Shown: piece by piece, positions 4,365 to 33,860 of the stretch
Numbering within the stretch: the first letter of the stretch is position 1
How the letters are laid out: every line of letters begins with the position of its first letter
IMG/VR virus record: IMGVR_UViG_3300047356_000168
Location: 1 to 33,860 of that record
Source of the DNA: a virus
Length of the DNA stretch: 33,860 nucleotides
Reading direction: 5' to 3' (one strand)
The notes under the pieces: generated by a model
Told to the model about the DNA's origin: nothing
The model's database searches: none
The model's input: the letters and a program-made list of their open reading frames with translations, nothing else
Position numbers and translations under genes: made by a program

Positions 4365-5136
4365 CGTTTATATGCTTTCTTAATCATCATTGCTTCTAAT
4401 TCGTTTTTCTCTTTCTCAAATGTTAGGTAGGTGAGGCACTGGAAGAGTGGACTCTCGGTGACATCATTGAATCTAAGGACATCCCCTTGAGCAAGTGCGT
4501 AAATTGATTGATACCATCCCCACTTTGAGCCAAAGTTTGCTTGAGCAGATACGTCTGTTCCTCCGTCAGATTTTTCTGTATAAAGCTCGGGATAGCTTTC
4601 AACAACTCCATCCCTAAAGCGTAAAAAAAAACCATAGAACTCATTGCTACATCTAGTGGCATCTCTTTCATTAGTTCAGATATCTCGTCACTTGGTTCGT
4701 ATGGCGCAATAGTATATTTCTCTTTACTGCGATAATTTACTGGTCTGTACAATACTGCCATAGCTTTGTGCATTGTTTCCCATTCAACTACGTTAGATTC
4801 CAAGTCTACATACTCGCCAAGAGATATATTCTCTATGTTTGGTATAAAGCCCATAGGAACGTCAAGTAGTTTGAAGTGGCGAATAATATCAGGTTTCTCT
4901 TCAAACGCCTTATTGATAATGCTAAGAACTTTATCCGCCTCAGCTAAAGGAATCTTTAATACGTCTTTGAATTCAACATTACAGAATATCTCAATAGTCT
5001 TCATATTGATAAACTCTGCTGCATTCTCATCATTCTTGTTCTGGTCAAGTATCTTTAAGTACTTTTGATACTGTCCGAGCGTTATGTCAGAAAGTGCGTC
5101 TGGAACTGATAATTGTATTTGTGCGTTATTCGCCAT
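4361..5136 (-). CDS. Tail assembly chaperone, long -1 frameshift fusion, gpGT-like
   Basis: If one base is re-read in the T9 run at 4623-4631, the -1 frame stays open for about 89 codons to TGA at 4361-4363, giving a product of about 258 aa. The added domain contains FGSKWGWYQSIYALAQGD and FNDVTESPLFQCLTYLTF, a pattern I recognise from second-frame domains of Bacteroidetes phage tail chaperones. Both frames look coding after the slip site. The alternative, a homopolymer length error in the assembly, would give a single fused ORF but would leave the well-formed frame-0 tail unexplained. Confidence 0.75.
4423..5136 (-). CDS. Tail assembly chaperone, short (frame 0) form, gpG-like
   Basis: 237 aa, mostly helical, starting MANNAQIQLSVPDALSDITLGQYQKYLKIL. 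First gene of the late structural unit, starting 61 bases below the TACAnTGTA array. It carries a run of nine T (plus-strand A run 4623-4631) inside codons Val-Phe-Phe-Tyr. Ribosomes that stay in frame read a further ~65 residues (ALGMELLKAIPS...) and stop at 4423. By analogy with lambda gpG/gpGT, this form and the longer frameshift form should coat the tape measure protein during tail assembly. Identification rests on the frameshift layout and the C-terminal domain in the -1 frame. Confidence 0.75.
   Translation of the reverse strand: MANNAQIQLSVPDALSDITLGQYQKYLKILDQNKNDENAAEFINMKTIEIFCNVEFKDVLKIPLAEADKVLSIINKAFEEKPDIIRHFKLLDVPMGFIPNIENISLGEYVDLESNVVEWETMHKAMAVLYRPVNYRSKEKYTIAPYEPSDEISELMKEMPLDVAMSSMVFFYALGMELLKAIPSFIQKNLTEEQTYLLKQTLAQSGDGINQFTHLLKGMSLDSMMSPRVHSSSASPT
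4623..4631 (-). promoter_or_regulatory. Slippery T9 run for -1 frameshifting
   Basis: On the coding strand the run is GG followed by nine T and AC, read GTT TTT TTT TAC in frame 0. Tandem TTT codons allow re-pairing of both tRNAs in the -1 frame with no mismatch. It divides the 237-aa and ~258-aa tail chaperone products. Transcriptional slippage on the homopolymer is an alternative mechanism with the same outcome. Confidence 0.7.
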
Positions 5137-5197
5137 ATTAAATTAACTTTTATGTTTGTTAGTGTTTGCCCAACTGTCTGTATGGCACAATATATAA

Positions 5198-5307
5198 TAC
5201 ATTAGTATAGTATAGTACATTGTATAGTATATAGTACATTGTATAGTAGAATACATTGTACAGTGTAAAAAGAATATATAGTACACTGTACTCTATAGTA
5301 CATTGTA
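5198..5307. promoter_or_regulatory. Array of TACAnTGTA palindromes upstream of late operon
   Basis: Perfect 9-mers with half-sites TACA/TGTA lie at 5216-5224, 5235-5243, 5252-5260, 5282-5290 and 5299-5307. An overlapping copy is at 5259-5267 and a degenerate copy (TACATTAGTA) at 5198-5207. Main start-to-start spacings are 19, 17, 30 and 17 bp. The array fills the gap between the stop of the 81-aa gene and the start of the tail chaperone gene, so it probably holds the late promoter with operator sites for a dimeric regulator. Iterons for a replication initiator are an alternative. Confidence 0.65.
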
Positions 5308-5553
5308 TTATACGGATAGCTTATCTCCATTGTAAAAGTGTCTGTATAACTCCCATATCTTTTCAGACCACTCATCCTTATCATACAGCTTGGGCGAAAC
5401 TATCTTTGATGCGCCATTATCAATAACTATCTTGAACTGATTGGCAGATGGGATAGGGTAGATTCGTATGTTTCTTTCCATACACCAGCTAAATGCCTTT
5501 AATGACTCTGGATGATTGTTTAAATCTATTACTTTCTTCTTGCGTTTTGCCAT
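5308..5553 (-). CDS. Small conserved phage protein of unknown function
   Basis: 81 aa if started at MAKRKKK (5553). This start is chosen because a TAnnTTTG promoter element ends four bases upstream and lies inside the longer ORF. The N-terminus is basic (KRKKK), followed by HPESLKAFSWCMERNIRIYP and a C-terminal WELYRHFYNGDK helix. It resembles small proteins seen in Bacteroidetes phages without known role. The late palindrome array begins one base after its stop, so it is the last gene before the late operon. Confidence 0.75.
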   Translation of the reverse strand: MAKRKKKVIDLNNHPESLKAFSWCMERNIRIYPIPSANQFKIVIDNGASKIVSPKLYDKDEWSEKIWELYRHFYNGDKLSV

Positions 5554-5557
5554 AAAA

Positions 5558-5587
5558 CAAATATACGAATATAATTTGTAAGTGCAA
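5558..5587 (-). promoter_or_regulatory. Bacteroidetes-type promoter for the 81-aa gene
   Basis: On the minus strand TTG (5587-5585) is followed after 19 bases by TATATTTG (5565-5558), matching the -33/-7 pattern of Bacteroidetes sigma-ABfr promoters. Only four bases separate it from the ATG at 5553, so the transcript may be leaderless. Confidence 0.6.
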
Positions 5588-5922
5588 CACATATGATATA
5601 GTACATTGTACCCCCTATTAGATTCATAGGGGTATTGAATTCAGTTGGCAGATGGAAGGTAGGCTGTGTATAGAGTTGAGGTATATTAGCTGCTGGGGTA
5701 TCATTACAGGCAGAGTACCCCATATAAAGCCATTTAAGGCTATTTAGAGGCGTTTTAAGAGCATAACGGGTGTTGTGTGGTATGTTGGTATGGTTGGAGA
5801 GGAGAAACGAGCTAAAAACGATAGAAAAATATACCTATTTAATATGAATTTAACCCAGCCAAACAAATTAATATCCTGAATAAAAACAAGATAACAAAAA
5901 AACCATACAAAAATATGGGTAT
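5566..5922. other. Gene-poor structured region
   Basis: No convincing gene in about 350 bases. It contains a single TACATTGTA palindrome (5602-5610) and a perfect 7-bp hairpin CCCCTAT/ATAGGGG (5612-5632). It also holds two copies of the dispersed TATTRAATTC-type motif (5612-5626, 5629-5644), a second hairpin TGGGGTA/TACCCCA (5694-5722) and a short stem AGCC/GGCT (5728-5741). None has a T-run, so they are not plain terminators. An origin, packaging site or structured RNA are possible; I cannot decide. Confidence 0.4.
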
Positions 5923-11832: not shown

Positions 11833-12351
11833 TTAAGATATTGATTGATATACTTCTGTTTGTTGATTACGAGGCTTTATCTCTTGTTTAGCAACCTCGA
11901 CTAACATACGAAGTTTGTCAGTAATCTGCTCTACCTTGTCTTCGGGCAAGTCTCCAATTATATCAGATATCTCTTTACACTCTCTTATAACTCTTCTCTG
12001 AGAACTAAGTTGAGATTCAAGAAGTTTGTTCTTTAGGTAAACATCCGAGATGGCTTCATTTTGTAAACTAATCTCTCTTGTGTACTCACTGACAACTGTA
12101 TGATATCTAATTTTAACCCAATCCTCTGACTTAACAATGTTATTAAACTGGTTAATGCTATACAATATAGTGGCGTGATTCTTTTTAAACATCCTGCCTA
12201 TCGCAGTGTAACTGTATCTGTGGAACTGTTGTAGGACTTTATACATAATCATTCGTGCATATACAACCTCTCTAGTTCTATTGTTTTTTAATGGGTCTAC
12301 CTTGCAAACCTCTTGTGTAATATCTCTTAATATATCAAAGTCAATGTTCAT
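11833..12351 (-). CDS. DnaA domain IV-like DNA-binding protein
   Basis: 172 aa. Residues about 25-75 (TREVVYARMIMYKVLQQF, YTAIGRMFKKNHATILYSIN) carry the DnaA C-terminal signature in which the HATILY-type helix reads the DnaA box. No AAA+ domain is present, so this is a stand-alone DNA-binding domain followed by a helical, probably coiled-coil C-terminus. It may bind DnaA boxes in the phage origin or host chromosome, or act as a transcription regulator. Overlaps the 64-aa gene by 11 bases. Confidence 0.85.
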   Translation of the reverse strand: MNIDFDILRDITQEVCKVDPLKNNRTREVVYARMIMYKVLQQFHRYSYTAIGRMFKKNHATILYSINQFNNIVKSEDWVKIRYHTVVSEYTREISLQNEAISDVYLKNKLLESQLSSQRRVIRECKEISDIIGDLPEDKVEQITDKLRMLVEVAKQEIKPRNQQTEVYQSIS

Positions 12352-13781: not shown

Positions 13782-14068
13782 TATTCCTCTGTATTATAAT
13801 GTTTACTTAATAATCTAATAACTTCTATTAATGTCTCTGATACTTGATAGTTATTGCCAGAACTCAACTTAACTAGCAACTTAATATCGCACCTAACTTT
13901 ATTCTTCTTATCTAAATAAGGTAGCGAATTCAACTCTTCAAGGAAGACACCCTTTTTGTCGTGGCGTGCTATAGACTCGATAACCTGAGAGTCCTTCATC
14001 GGATTACCAAGTGTTTTTAATCCCGATATATTATATGTAAAACTTACTGTATCTAAATTACTCTTCAT
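13781..14068 (-). CDS. Hypothetical protein (95 aa)
   Basis: MKSNLDTVSFTYNISGLKTL start at 14068. Contains SIARHDKKGVFLEELNSLPY and VRCDIKLLVKLSSGNNYQVS, a mix of strands and helices; soluble. Overlaps both neighbours by single bases. No family recognised. Confidence 0.6.
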   Translation of the reverse strand: MKSNLDTVSFTYNISGLKTLGNPMKDSQVIESIARHDKKGVFLEELNSLPYLDKKNKVRCDIKLLVKLSSGNNYQVSETLIEVIRLLSKHYNTEE

Positions 14069-14259
14069 TACTTTATGTATTTAATTGTGTAACTAATAAA
14101 CTTCTCTATCCAATTAAGGGCTATCCTTAATGGTGTCTCTACTCCGTGATATACAGTAAGGAGTAGGGTCTCTAAGCAAAAGAACACAACGAGTGTTATG
14201 ATTGCTATAGATGCTCTTACAAGATTAAGGGGGTATCGTATAATTCTCTTTATAGTCAT
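14068..14259 (-). CDS. Small membrane protein (63 aa)
   Basis: Start at MTIKRIIRYPL (14259), chosen because the promoter element TATATTTG at 14285-14278 would fall inside any longer frame. Basic N-terminus, then a strong membrane segment (about 17-37, IAIITLVVFFCLETLLLT) and an amphipathic C-terminus. Inner-membrane location is likely. Function unknown. Confidence 0.6.
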   Translation of the reverse strand: MTIKRIIRYPLNLVRASIAIITLVVFFCLETLLLTVYHGVETPLRIALNWIEKFISYTIKYIK

Positions 14260-14277
14260 CTGTACTTGATTTGAGTA

Positions 14278-14309
14278 CAAATATATAAAAGAATTATCTA
14301 ATAAACAAA
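14278..14309 (-). promoter_or_regulatory. Bacteroidetes-type promoter
   Basis: On the minus strand TTTG (plus 14306-14309) is followed by 20 bases and TATATTTG (plus 14285-14278), a strong match to the -33/-7 consensus. It would start transcripts near 14272, just ahead of the 63-aa membrane protein gene, as an internal promoter of the middle unit. Confidence 0.7.
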
Positions 14310-15804: not shown

Positions 15805-16081
15805 AATCTAAAAGTAACAGTATTTGTTCCAATGAGTTGCACACTGCATAATTTCCACCCCACTTGAGTGAGAAATCTAACTCATCTTTCGTTAATCTCT
15901 GTTGACTCTTAGATTTGTTCCCATCTTTAAGCTCTATAAGGTAATTAGAATTCATATAACCAACTATAATATCAGGCGCACCTTTACCAAGTTGGTGTGT
16001 ATGTAAAACCGATATACCTCGCTTTCTCAATTCTTGTACTATTTCTTTTTGATTTGCATCTACTCTAGCTTTCTTTCGCAT
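15791..16081 (-). CDS. VRR-NUC domain nuclease
   Basis: 96 aa, a complete stand-alone VRR-NUC: EIVQELRKRGISVLHTHQLG, KGAPDIIVGYMNSNYLIELKDG with catalytic Asp (about 36), Glu-x-Lys (about 50-52), and KSQQRLTKDELDF. Members cleave branched or nicked DNA, and phage versions usually stand beside the primase-helicase, as here (22-base overlap). Probable role in resolving replication or recombination intermediates. Confidence 0.9.
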   Translation of the reverse strand: MRKKARVDANQKEIVQELRKRGISVLHTHQLGKGAPDIIVGYMNSNYLIELKDGNKSKSQQRLTKDELDFSLKWGGNYAVCNSLEQILLLLDYDEE

Positions 16082-17808
16082 CTTTTAGCATCAATATCGT
16101 TAAAGGGTGTGTACCCATTAAAGTAATATCTCTGCTCCTTCACGTTGAAGTTTATTGCTGTAACATCCTGTGGAACTCCAACTAGCTTTTGTTTCTTAAT
16201 CTTTTGTGTACCAAAGATAACACTTGTATCTGAGAAATCCAAAGCCCTATTTGGTCTCCATACATAAGCTACATTATCAGCCTTATCTGCAAACGTACCT
16301 CCACCTTTAATCTTATTAACATCTGGCTTATAATATCTACCATCCTCAGTCTTTTGTGGTGTAACTTGATGCGCCACTAAATTCACACTAATGTCGTTGT
16401 CTATTGCAAACCTCTTTAGTTCAGACATAAACCTACTGATGTATAAGTCTTCTCTCTCACCAGAAAACATCTTATGCTGAACTGTATTGTAGGGGTCAAT
16501 GATTAGCGACCTAATTCCCTTTTGACGAACTAAGAACTTAGCACGCTCAAAGATATTGTCAAGTGTAAAGTATTTCTTAGGATATATAACAAAGAAGTGT
16601 TTCTTCACAAACTCAATACCCTCTTTGTACTCCTCTTCAGTCATCTGGTGTGAGTAGTATGGGTCAGCACTTTTACCTATGTACATCTCTATAATATCGT
16701 TAAAGAAGTCTCGCATAGGCATATTCTCTGGCGTAAAAACAGCAAACTTCCAGCCATCGTGAAACGCCTTAATAGTCGCCAGTTGATTAAGAAACAAGCT
16801 CTTTCCTTCATTCTGATATCCTGTCCAGATAGTAATCTCTTGCTTTCTCCAAGTCCACGCCTCATCTACAGAAGGAATGTAAGTAGTTGTGCCTCTTTCT
16901 TGACCATTATTAAAACCGTCTAGCATAGAATCCATAACATCCGTTACTTCAAACACACCCTCTAGTTTAGGGTCGTGAGCCGTTTTAAGACGCTTTCTGA
17001 GACTATCTATCCCTTCCTGTAGTAAGACTTCGTTAGCGTCCTTAAACGGTCTTAAATCAACTAATTTACATTTAGATGCGCCAAATCGTCTAAGCAATTC
17101 TCTTTCCAATAGGCGACCATTATCATCATTGTCAGTAGCTATGTAAATCTTTTTAGCTTGGTCAAACACCTCATAACAGTTAGAAATGCACTCTAACTTC
17201 TTATCAATGTTCTTGTCATCTTTGTTAGGCGCACCCATATTCACAGAAGTGTGAAAGTCAATACCTGCAACTTCCCACGATAGTGAATCTAATTCGCCCT
17301 CACATATAACGATTGACTCTGATTCTTTAACTCTGTCGTAGTTATAAATCATCGGTTTAGCATCTTTCGCCTGAGTAAAGGTCTTTCCGTTAATACCTCT
17401 AGTCTTGTAATTTATAAGGTTGTTATCTTTAAGATACGCAAATGCTACACTCTTGTTATCCTTTGTAGATACAATTTTATTCTTCTTAATCACCTCATCA
17501 GTGATACCTCTGTCATTCAAGAATTGACGACCTTCTTTCTTTAGGCTCGCCAGATAATTCTTGCTAGGAGATTTATAAACTTTCTTAGGTTGTTCCATTG
17601 TTACATAATTTTCTCTGTCATTTACTTTACCGCTAAAGCCACACTTGTGGCAGTTATATAATCCTTTCGCCAAATTAATAGAAAGACAAGTGTCCTTCCA
17701 ATTCTCTTTACCTAATCTGGCGCATTGAGGACATTTTACTTTCTGCTCTACTCTATTTCCCTTCGGTTGAATACCTAATTCGGAAAATTTTATGTCAATC
17801 GTTTGCAT
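16060..17808 (-). CDS. TOPRIM primase-DnaB-type helicase fusion (T7 gp4-like)
   Basis: 582 aa. N-terminal zinc ribbon with Cys26, Cys29, Cys53, Cys56. TOPRIM domain with VICEGELDS (Glu170) and IYIATDNDDNGR (Asp226, Asp228). C-terminal RecA-type helicase with Walker A GYQNEGKS (330-337), an unusual form lacking the second canonical Gly, and SLIIDPYN as Walker B. Provides priming and unwinding at the fork; no phage DNA polymerase gene was found, so it likely works with the host replisome. Lies directly below the second TACAnTGTA array. Confidence 0.9.
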   Translation of the reverse strand: MQTIDIKFSELGIQPKGNRVEQKVKCPQCARLGKENWKDTCLSINLAKGLYNCHKCGFSGKVNDRENYVTMEQPKKVYKSPSKNYLASLKKEGRQFLNDRGITDEVIKKNKIVSTKDNKSVAFAYLKDNNLINYKTRGINGKTFTQAKDAKPMIYNYDRVKESESIVICEGELDSLSWEVAGIDFHTSVNMGAPNKDDKNIDKKLECISNCYEVFDQAKKIYIATDNDDNGRLLERELLRRFGASKCKLVDLRPFKDANEVLLQEGIDSLRKRLKTAHDPKLEGVFEVTDVMDSMLDGFNNGQERGTTTYIPSVDEAWTWRKQEITIWTGYQNEGKSLFLNQLATIKAFHDGWKFAVFTPENMPMRDFFNDIIEMYIGKSADPYYSHQMTEEEYKEGIEFVKKHFFVIYPKKYFTLDNIFERAKFLVRQKGIRSLIIDPYNTVQHKMFSGEREDLYISRFMSELKRFAIDNDISVNLVAHQVTPQKTEDGRYYKPDVNKIKGGGTFADKADNVAYVWRPNRALDFSDTSVIFGTQKIKKQKLVGVPQDVTAINFNVKEQRYYFNGYTPFNDIDAKRCERKLE

Positions 17809-17844: not shown

Positions 17845-17938
17845 TACAATGTATAGTATATAGTACATTGTATAGTATTTTATTTACTTACTATACATTG
17901 TACTCTATAATACAATGTATTAAGTACTATACACTGTA
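17845..17938. promoter_or_regulatory. Second TACAnTGTA palindrome array, upstream of primase-helicase
   Basis: Perfect copies at 17845-17853, 17864-17872, 17894-17902, 17911-17919 and 17930-17938, with spacings 19, 30, 17 and 19 bp. The last copy lies inside the 3' end of the winged-helix gene. Copies and spacings parallel the array at 5198-5307. Regulatory operators for the replication genes, or origin iterons, are the main possibilities. Confidence 0.65.
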
Positions 17939-18219
17939 TCACAGAGAGAACGGTATTTCGGATTTATATAAATCTTACGTTCTTTACCATCGTTCCCTAC
18001 ACTCTTAGTAACCCTTGTCACAAACTCTTTCTCCTCAAGTCTTGTAAGGATTCTATAGAAAGTCCTGTCTTTGATGTCAAGACTCTCGCATATATGTTTA
18101 CTAGTGGCGTAACAGTACCCTGTCTTATTCGCCAATGAGCAAACGTAACTAAATACAGCATTTTCCTGTAGATTCAAATCTAAGTCGCTCATAATTAATT
18201 TTATAAATTTAGGTCTCAT
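17920..18219 (-). CDS. Winged-helix replication initiator or regulator
   Basis: 99 aa. Residues 15-75 form a helix-turn-helix (LNLQENAVFSYVCSLANKTG, then SLDIKDRTFYRILTRLEEKE and a wing VTRVTKSVG), like the N-terminal domain of Rep/DnaD-type initiators (HTH_36-like). It is a good candidate to bind the palindromes at its own 3' end (17845-17938) and at 5198-5307. ATG at 18219 lies four bases after the T-run of a terminator, so its own expression may depend on readthrough. Confidence 0.75.
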   Translation of the reverse strand: MRPKFIKLIMSDLDLNLQENAVFSYVCSLANKTGYCYATSKHICESLDIKDRTFYRILTRLEEKEFVTRVTKSVGNDGKERKIYINPKYRSLCDTVYST

Positions 18220-18254: not shown

Positions 18255-18521
18255 TTAGAAAGGGAGGTCACTATTCTCCTCCACAGCTTGTTTAACTGGA
18301 GCACTTGCCTCGCCTTTAGGCTTCCAAGTGTTTACCTTTACGTTATGCGTTTTACCATACATCGGCTCTTTCTTAGGCTCGATTGTAAGGCGAACATATC
18401 GCTCTCCGTTATACTCATACCAATGGTCTCTTAGTTTGCTCTCTGAGATGCTAAAGTTGATTCCACTGAAATTGTCTGGCTTTGTACCAGTTCCTACATA
18501 AATTGCTTGTTGATTATCCAT
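18255..18521 (-). CDS. Single-stranded DNA-binding protein-like
   Basis: 88 aa, with beta-strand-rich body (YVRLTIEPKKEPMYGKTHNV) and a final acidic tail EENSDLPF like the C-terminal tip of bacterial SSB that recruits partner enzymes. Much shorter than a typical OB-fold SSB, so it may be a reduced SSB. Lies nine bases after the ERF gene. Role in protecting ssDNA during replication and annealing is inferred from tail and context. Confidence 0.65.
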   Translation of the reverse strand: MDNQQAIYVGTGTKPDNFSGINFSISESKLRDHWYEYNGERYVRLTIEPKKEPMYGKTHNVKVNTWKPKGEASAPVKQAVEENSDLPF

Positions 18522-18530
18522 ATTTAAAAA

Positions 18531-19082
18531 TTAAGCGGTTAATAATTGTTCTACTTTCTTACTTACTTTGTACTTCTTTCTAATGTCTTGAATCGACACT
18601 TTACCTGTACCCAATGCAGCTTTTGCGTTGTCAAACTTAACTCCACTGTCAGGCAACCAGCTTAAATCATCGCTAGACGTATTTATAGCCGTTTTACCGT
18701 GCGTATTAGTTGCATCTGAGTCTTTGGTATCGTCAATCAAAAATAAGCCGTTTAAGGCGTATTTGCGTGCATAAGATGAACTTGACCCAAATGATTGAGC
18801 TATGTCCATACCCTTCTTGTTAGTGTCAATACCAGCTTGAGCATTAACCATAACAGTTTCGCTGCCATCCGTTAGTTTAGCCGTAGCTGAAACGAATAGT
18901 GCGCCTTGATTCTCTATAAAGTCAGAGATTGTTAGAGCTAACTTGTGCTCTACTAATAGAGGTTTTACTGCCTCTAAGATGTCCTCACAGCTTCGATAGT
19001 TGTACTTACCGAAGTTGTTCTTTTGATTCTTTGGTGCTTTCAGTCTCCCCTGAATGTCCACCAACTTCTCATAAATAGTCAT
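18531..19082 (-). CDS. erf: ERF-family single-strand annealing protein
   Basis: 183 aa from MTIYEKLVDIQ (19082); the longer frame is rejected because a promoter lies right before this ATG. ERF signature: KNNFGKYNYRSCEDILEAVK (about 22-41), KPLLVEHKLALTISD, and the GSSSSYARKYALNGLFLIDD segment (about 102-121). Promotes annealing of complementary single strands; partner of the RecB-like exonuclease and the SSB-like protein. Confidence 0.9.
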   Translation of the reverse strand: MTIYEKLVDIQGRLKAPKNQKNNFGKYNYRSCEDILEAVKPLLVEHKLALTISDFIENQGALFVSATAKLTDGSETVMVNAQAGIDTNKKGMDIAQSFGSSSSYARKYALNGLFLIDDTKDSDATNTHGKTAINTSSDDLSWLPDSGVKFDNAKAALGTGKVSIQDIRKKYKVSKKVEQLLTA

Positions 19083-19086
19083 AGGG

Positions 19087-19118
19087 CAAATGTACAAATC
19101 CCAACTGACACCACCAAA
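19087..19118 (-). promoter_or_regulatory. Bacteroidetes-type promoter for the recombination genes
   Basis: On the minus strand TTTG (plus 19115-19118), 20 bases, TACATTTG (plus 19094-19087). Four bases separate it from the ERF ATG, so the message is likely leaderless. It overlaps the 3' end of the upstream nuclease gene's downstream spacer. Confidence 0.75.
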
Positions 19119-33047: not shown

Positions 33048-33860
33048 AATACGTTTAGTAGTTCTAATTTAGACTCCCCTGTTTTTAGGTTGGTGTTTAT
33101 TGAATTTATTGTAAATACTTTGTCGCCAATCTGAAATCTATCGTTTAGCTTATAATTAAGTAATACACTATTCGGTAAATGTGCTGTTAGCTTGAATATG
33201 CGTTTCTTTGGATTAAAAGCGTCTTCTATATACGTTTGATAGAAGTTCTTAAATAGTGAGTTCGTAGAACCTCCATAGTCACTTATAGTCCACTCGTCAA
33301 CTTCATTATCAAAGTTTAGTGTGTAACTTGGAATCCTGTACAACTTAAATGCATCTCCATTATCAAAAACATCATCCTCGATACCGATAATATTTAAGCC
33401 ATCTATAGATACAACTCTAGTTACTATGTTGTCTGTTGTGTTTATTATGTAATCACCTATATCTGCTGCTGACCCTAAGTAGTTAGATTGAACCTTGTAT
33501 GCGGTTGAGGTTGAGTTAGTGCCAGTATAAAGTGGCTCTTCTAAAGAATATCCTCTTTCATTTGTATTAGATGGTCTAAAGTAATTTGACAACTGAGTGT
33601 GAGTATTACTTGATGTCTGATAATTTATTCTGTAAGTTGTCCCTGTGTTCTCCCTTAGACCATAAAACAATACTGGCTTTGTAAGTACAGGGTCAAAATT
33701 AGCTGATGGATTCCCTTGAGCCTCAATGTCAGAAGTGTTTGGCTTAAAGTTATCTCCAGCAGAATAACCCCACATAATGTTAGTTCTTGCATTATCGTCC
33801 TCATCAAAAAGTCTCTCGTACTTCATATGCTCGAATGGCAACTTTATCTTGTATGGCTTA
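33044..33860 (-). CDS. Large tail protein, second copy of 3' part (5' end cut by window edge)
   Basis: In-frame coding from the right edge to TGA at 33046-33044 (271 residues visible). The part 33224-33860 duplicates bases 1-637 with 14 residue changes, so this is the other allele of the gene at 1-2226. It supplies the missing C-terminal 59 residues (…FNPKKRIFKLTAHLPNSVLL…). There is no true start here; an apparent TTG start at 33841 is internal. Confidence 0.85.
   Translation of the reverse strand, partial: KPYKIKLPFEHMKYERLFDEDDNARTNIMWGYSAGDNFKPNTSDIEAQGNPSANFDPVLTKPVLFYGLRENTGTTYRINYQTSSNTHTQLSNYFRPSNTNERGYSLEEPLYTGTNSTSTAYKVQSNYLGSAADIGDYIINTTDNIVTRVVSIDGLNIIGIEDDVFDNGDAFKLYRIPSYTLNFDNEVDEWTISDYGGSTNSLFKNFYQTYIEDAFNPKKRIFKLTAHLPNSVLLNYKLNDRFQIGDKVFTINSINTNLKTGESKLELLNVL
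33224..33860. repeat. Right copy of imperfect 637-bp terminal direct repeat
   Basis: Gap-free match to 1-637 with 26 mismatches. Differences in codons: 16 replacement and 10 silent changes. The clean flanks suggest that an assembler closed the circle over a strain-polymorphic stretch. Confidence 0.9.

Follow-up and report, generated by a model that had tools for sequence, protein, structure and literature searches.

In phage lambda, two separate clusters of palindromes, OL and OR, are served by one reader (CI/Cro), and their matched letters differ between related phages; the lambda origin is made up of O-protein iterons with AT-rich DNA, situated within gene O. Phage SPP1 has two origins, oriL, in gene 38, and oriR, in the late region, which lie about 13 kb apart in the circle, are alike in build (direct repeats plus an AT-rich unwinding element) and have gp38 as their common binding protein; the switch to concatemer synthesis is believed to be set off by a fork stalling at oriR (PMC6316719). 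In the PLE satellites, RepA_N and the origin change in matched fashion, with semi-palindromic iterons that vary between close relatives, and an origin-directed nuclease is thought to select for this matched turnover (PMC8263062).

The window, meaning the whole stretch of DNA analysed here, is the full 33,860-base IMG/VR record IMGVR_UViG_3300047356_000168 (positions 1-33,860). Its ends overlap by 637 bases (1-637 against 33224-33860, 95.9% identical), which makes it probable that the genome, about 33.2 kb in length, is circular or has terminal redundancy and that the record contains two sequence variants. Judged by its primase, the closest named phage is Tenacibaculum phage JQ, at 50% identity. 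All of the genes discussed here are on the minus strand. The two repeat arrays and the genes that they adjoin are as follows:

17845-17938: array 1, five exact TACANTGTA sites (at 17845, 17864, 17894, 17911 and 17930), between the winged-helix gene and the primase-helicase gene
17873-17893: AT-rich gap separating the two site groups of array 1, rich in A on the coding strand
17920-18219, minus strand: winged-helix protein of 99 aa (HTH_36; similar to a domain found in phage replication initiation proteins)
16060-17808, minus strand: primase-helicase (Toprim + DnaB_C), the first gene after array 1
5198-5307: array 2, six exact TACANTGTA sites (at 5216, 5235, 5252, 5259, 5282 and 5299) ahead of the structural unit, with a further, degenerate site near 5198
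4423-5136, minus strand: first gene of the structural unit after array 2 (phrog_32199)

The repeated site, TACANTGTA, is a palindrome about its central base. It occurs 13 times in exact form in the window, with 11 of these copies in the two arrays, as compared with a mean of 1.25 and a maximum of 4 in 100 dinucleotide shuffles of the window. Local dinucleotide shuffles gave means of 0.06 for array 1 and 0.10 for array 2, and none of 5000 reached the observed 5 and 6. The array sites are real, and chance is not an explanation for either array. Other viral contigs with at least three copies of TACANTGTA were mostly simple tandem repeats or unrelated contigs.

A first-pass annotation had described array 1 as five perfect copies with spacings of 19, 30, 17 and 19, lying partly inside the initiator gene and repeating the geometry of array 2. 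The copies and their spacings were found exactly at the positions claimed, and the overlap, a small one, amounts to one site (17930-17938) within the ORF at 17920-18219 (minus strand); the site at 17911-17919 stops one base short of that ORF's stop codon. The likeness in geometry goes only part of the way: a gap of about 30 nt and steps of 17 and 19 are common to both arrays, but the order of the steps differs: read as the genes are transcribed, it is 19, 17, 30, 19 for array 1 and 17, 30, 17, 19 for array 2 when the site at 5259, which overlaps its neighbour, is omitted. The final site of array 1 ends 36 nt ahead of the primase start (about 14 nt in the relative L291), and the AT content of the array 1 stretch is 82%, versus 63% for the genome. 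The two arrays are 12.6 kb apart.

Some 200 loci were assembled for relatives from IMG/VR scans with the primase-helicase, the gene at array 2 and an alignment of p88, a small protein described below. The closer relatives, marine phage contigs, have arrays at both loci, and their places are conserved, one downstream of the winged-helix gene and before the primase-helicase, the other downstream of a small gene and before the structural unit, with letters that differ by clade. Six types of site can be listed:

Type A, TACANTGTA: the window, L004-L013, L016 and L018
Type B, TACACTTAGTGTA: L014, L015, L140, L141 and L144
Type C, TATCATGTTATA: L019 and L020 (array 1 only seen)
Type D, TACATGTTATA: L021-L032, L040 and L146
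Type E, TTACAAGTAAC: L056/L152
Type F, TACATAGTGTA: L156/L291 and kin

For types A, B, D, E and F, the same type is present at both arrays wherever one contig shows both loci. When array 1 was compared with array 2 by permutation across 13 representative genomes, the trace of 9-mers common to array 1 and its own array 2 was 278, versus a permutation mean of 42.8, and 0 of 200,000 permutations were as high; with the second type-A genome (G007) left out, so that type A was represented by a single genome, the count was still 0. Array 1 shares 9-mers with the array 2 of its own genome, not with the array 2 of other clades. More distant clades (e.g. G014-G024) have a short, AT-only array 1 that does not clearly share sites with array 2.

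The expectation that paired arrays beside the same two genes would recur in relatives is thus borne out, with the added feature that their letters change in concert. The first-pass annotation had named unrelated upstream sequence in relatives with the same genes, or arrays strewn at random through the genome, as observations that would speak against it. Taken literally, the letters of clades B-F are indeed unrelated, but what replaces them is again a repeat array, in the same spot and with a matching partner at the second locus. Nor are the sites strewn at random: few lie outside the two arrays, whether in six records searched for their own motif or in the F-type genomes. Since the letters change together at both arrays, one trans-acting binder probably serves both, and from these comparisons we consider it very likely that a single shared, sequence-specific binder reads the two arrays.

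The build of the arrays also recurs. In types A and B, up to three sites spaced by 16-19 nt stand on each side of an AT-rich gap of 29-31 nt; on the coding strand of the genomes listed, the gap is A-rich in array 1 (18 listed genomes have this A-rich stretch) and T-rich in array 2. The difference in the gaps had raised the idea that the two arrays lie in opposite orientation, an idea abandoned once the iterons of types D and F, which are asymmetric, were seen to have the same direction relative to the downstream gene at both loci.

As to function, the first-pass annotation had offered one switch controlling both units, or two replication origins. With one probable shared factor this is a fair pair of readings, of which origins are put only slightly ahead of a switch. 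By analogy with oriL and oriR of SPP1, there is close to an even chance that the arrays are two replication origins or replication-control sites; the grounds are the placement by the initiator-like and primase-helicase genes, the iteron-like build with its AT-rich gap, the recombination gene set and the SPP1 parallel itself. The two arrays would then form the paired binding platform of one sequence-specific phage protein, filling up to 3+3 iteron-like sites around the AT-rich gap (3+2 in array 1 here); that the specificity changes between close relatives suggests that this protein is phage-encoded. The main origin would be array 1, next to the genes for the initiator-like protein and the primase-helicase, while array 2, 12.6 kb off at the head of the structural unit, would be a second origin or a fork barrier and may help in the change to concatemer synthesis, together with the annealase, the exonuclease and the SSB-like protein. 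Several observations count against origins: the position of the arrays directly ahead of co-directional units and the iteron orientation shared at the two loci in types D and F would be expected of operators too, GC skew has no turn at array 1 or array 2, and array 1 is AT-only in the distant clades.

Only slightly less probable is that the arrays are paired operators, through which one transcription regulator (a repressor, roadblock or activator) controls the replication and structural units, its specificity having diversified like lambdoid immunity. Each array lies directly ahead of the first gene of a long co-directional unit, and the like orientation of the type D and F iterons relative to the downstream gene at both loci would suit an operator. 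L056 adds a further point, its array 1 being located between two divergent units, the primase on one side and, on the other, a unit that holds an annealase-like gene and p88. The three-site pair OL/OR of lambda, read by one protein, is a ready precedent. On the other hand, a Bacteroidetes-type promoter (TTG-N19-TAnnTTTG or TTTG-N17-20-TAnnTTTG) was found neither in nor next to the arrays, in a search that used the Bacteroidetes consensus, while the phage's own sigma-like factor may prefer other promoters. Such promoters were found before p94 (the gene just upstream of array 2), before the Erf annealase gene and before 14068-14280, and none of them carries an array. Neither an integrase nor a lambda-type (CI/Cro) repressor was seen among the genes examined; none of the HTH proteins tested follows the sites throughout, and the 30-nt AT-rich gap at both loci would need a separate explanation. 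One protein could serve both origin and operator roles.

Two other explanations carry much less weight. It is very unlikely that a host DNA-binding protein reads them, with letters that follow the host; site types that differ between close relatives would be in keeping with such a protein, but type A recurs in two lineages (the window clade and L016), and we know of no single flavobacterial host factor with such varied specificity. Gene conversion, with one array repeatedly copied onto the other and no common reader protein, could in part mimic a shared binder and would account for the linker letters common to both window arrays (ATAGAG and CTATATACTA), but it is highly improbable, for across clades the AT gaps go with the locus and the site letters with the genome, a pattern that speaks for a shared trans-acting binder rather than wholesale array copying, and random copying alone would not keep the sites repeated and near-palindromic within an array.

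The genes relevant to the identity of the shared binder, with two elements near array 2, are the following:

18255-18521, minus strand: p88, an SSB-like protein of 88 aa with DLPF as its last residues, encoded beside the Erf annealase; candidate binder
18531-19097, minus strand: Erf-type single-strand annealing protein
11833-12351, minus strand: protein that combines a DnaA domain IV with a C-terminal extension; not retained as general binder
5308-5592, minus strand: p94, a small conserved gene just upstream of array 2, with its conserved start probably at 5553
5558-5587, minus strand: Bacteroidetes-type promoter TTG-N19-TAnnTTTG before p94
5175-5187: TGYC-N5-GRCA element, flanking array 2 on its downstream side

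Upstream of the winged-helix gene lie p88 and then the Erf annealase, with an exonuclease gene also nearby. A terminator-like (intrinsic) hairpin is seen at 18247-18228, between p88 and the winged-helix gene; its end is about 9 nt from the winged-helix start codon, which leaves hardly any space for a promoter belonging to the latter gene.

The most telling genome is L016, whose backbone is close to the type-B genomes, yet both of its arrays are of type A. For each of 15 genes with data, a tracking contrast was obtained by subtracting the identity of the L016 protein to type B from its identity to type A. The p88 of L016 is 77% identical to type A versus 52% to type B, a contrast of +24.8, and is placed with type A in the p88 tree with a support of 1.0; the contrasts of the 14 other genes are all negative, from -55 to -1, making p88 the only one of the 15 tested genes that tracks site type. 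An ORF-by-ORF scan of L016 found two tail genes that also lean to type A. In L022, which has a type-D array as its kin do, p88 is 91% identical, as compared with 40% for the DnaA-domain protein. The tracking comes from essentially one switch event, on the B branch, and this one supporting contrast in L022. The matches of p88 to an SSB family are weak. Its predicted fold (pLDDT 80) gave no match in the PDB and includes no recognised sequence-specific DNA-binding fold; in BFVD it matches only uncharacterised or unnamed phage proteins, and a search of the phages collection with p88 as query gave no match. Since p88 lacks a recognised binding fold and adjoins Erf nearly everywhere, its tracking could be coincidence. 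It is the best-tracking candidate for the binder of the arrays, and is put forward as such tentatively; quite possibly, the binder is another phage protein. The fuller proposal, that the arrays are read by p88 and not by the winged-helix or DnaA-domain protein, and that changes in p88 reset the letters of both arrays, is possible but doubtful.

The DnaA-domain protein was identified by profile (E. coli 1j1v, E 1.4e-12). In L022 it is only about 40% identical to that of its kin, with which it shares the type-D array, and the PF08299 match is absent from the F-type genomes G029 and G049; lacking the gene, G029 still shows both arrays and G049 shows array 1. This divergence and the missing gene led to its rejection, and it is excluded as a general binder because the F clade keeps both arrays without it. 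The half-sites of type B had been likened by eye to DnaA boxes, a resemblance that fits type B only and was dropped. In the L016 protein, the HTH (residues 30-78) groups with type A (0.91), which had made it appealing as a binder, and the C-terminus with type B (0.94), and these split affinities suggest a domain exchange (11833-12351 in the window; L016:8186-8734).

The winged-helix protein adjoining array 1, which had been put forward as the natural binder, has lost ground. There is hardly any variation in its recognition helix (D-R-T-x-Y/F-R), although the sites turn over completely; it has diverged without tracking site type, the L016 contrast being -2.2 with an unresolved tree; and in L056 its gene is detached from array 1. 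That it is the binder is now improbable.

It may have a different target. Array 2 is accompanied by an exact TGYC-N5-GRCA element in 16 of 21 genomes, 13 of which have it on the downstream side, and in several distant clades the element flanks array 1 (L035, L041, L052, L054, L060 and L080). It stays constant while the site type changes, and so probably belongs to another protein; the winged-helix protein, with its constant recognition helix, would fit as its reader.

The p94 protein was rejected as binder, being present also in relatives that have no array at the array-2 position and not tracking site type; in L016 it is 60% identical to type A and 76% to type B. Its alpha-beta3-alpha model gave no significant match in the PDB. 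Upstream of p94, a non-coding block at about 5610-5750 is conserved across clades: ACTCTGCC ... AACTCTATACACA ... TTCCATCTGCCAACTG. A lone TACATTGTA is also present at 5602-5610, just upstream of the p94 promoter, and is missing from relatives; autoregulation through this single site at 5602 was rejected, as the site is not kept.

At least five natural specificity types within one family of uncultured marine phages provide a ready-made test set for the binder, and the paired control sites allow one to ask whether phages diversify their replication origins or switches in the manner of plasmids and lambdoid phages. If p88 is what reads the arrays, a phage lineage that is otherwise conserved would be split into replicon or immunity types, and phage replication or regulation would gain an unknown DNA-binding fold; a protein of the p88 fold that binds double strands sequence-specifically and has an SSB-like tail would, if true, be a new kind of initiator or regulator.

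Compared with the known systems, the arrays resemble lambda OL/OR in forming two separate palindrome clusters with matched letters; unlike OL/OR, they contain as many as six sites each, have an AT-rich gap and lie 12.6 kb from each other, and no CI/Cro-like gene, divergent promoters or lysogeny genes have been identified among the proteins scanned. Array 1 is like the lambda origin in combining an iteron array and AT-rich DNA at an initiator(-like) gene, though lambda ori is a single array, and here only one of the five array 1 sites lies in the initiator-like gene, whose protein does not track the sites. The likeness to PLE lies in its iterons, which differ among close relatives in step with a binding domain; PLE has one origin where there are two arrays here, and the covarying protein here is at best SSB-like, not RepA. 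SPP1 is an unrelated phage of an unrelated host, and it differs in that the window has short palindromes, with letters varying between relatives, and a helicase fused to a primase; the arrays of the window are putative origins. The likenesses to SPP1 are these: two similar repeat arrays per genome, one at an initiator(-like) gene and one in the late region, AT-rich parts within the arrays, a circularising genome, an annealase, an exonuclease, an SSB and a DnaB-type helicase, and, as the concerted change implies, probably one reader for both arrays, as gp38 is for oriL and oriR.
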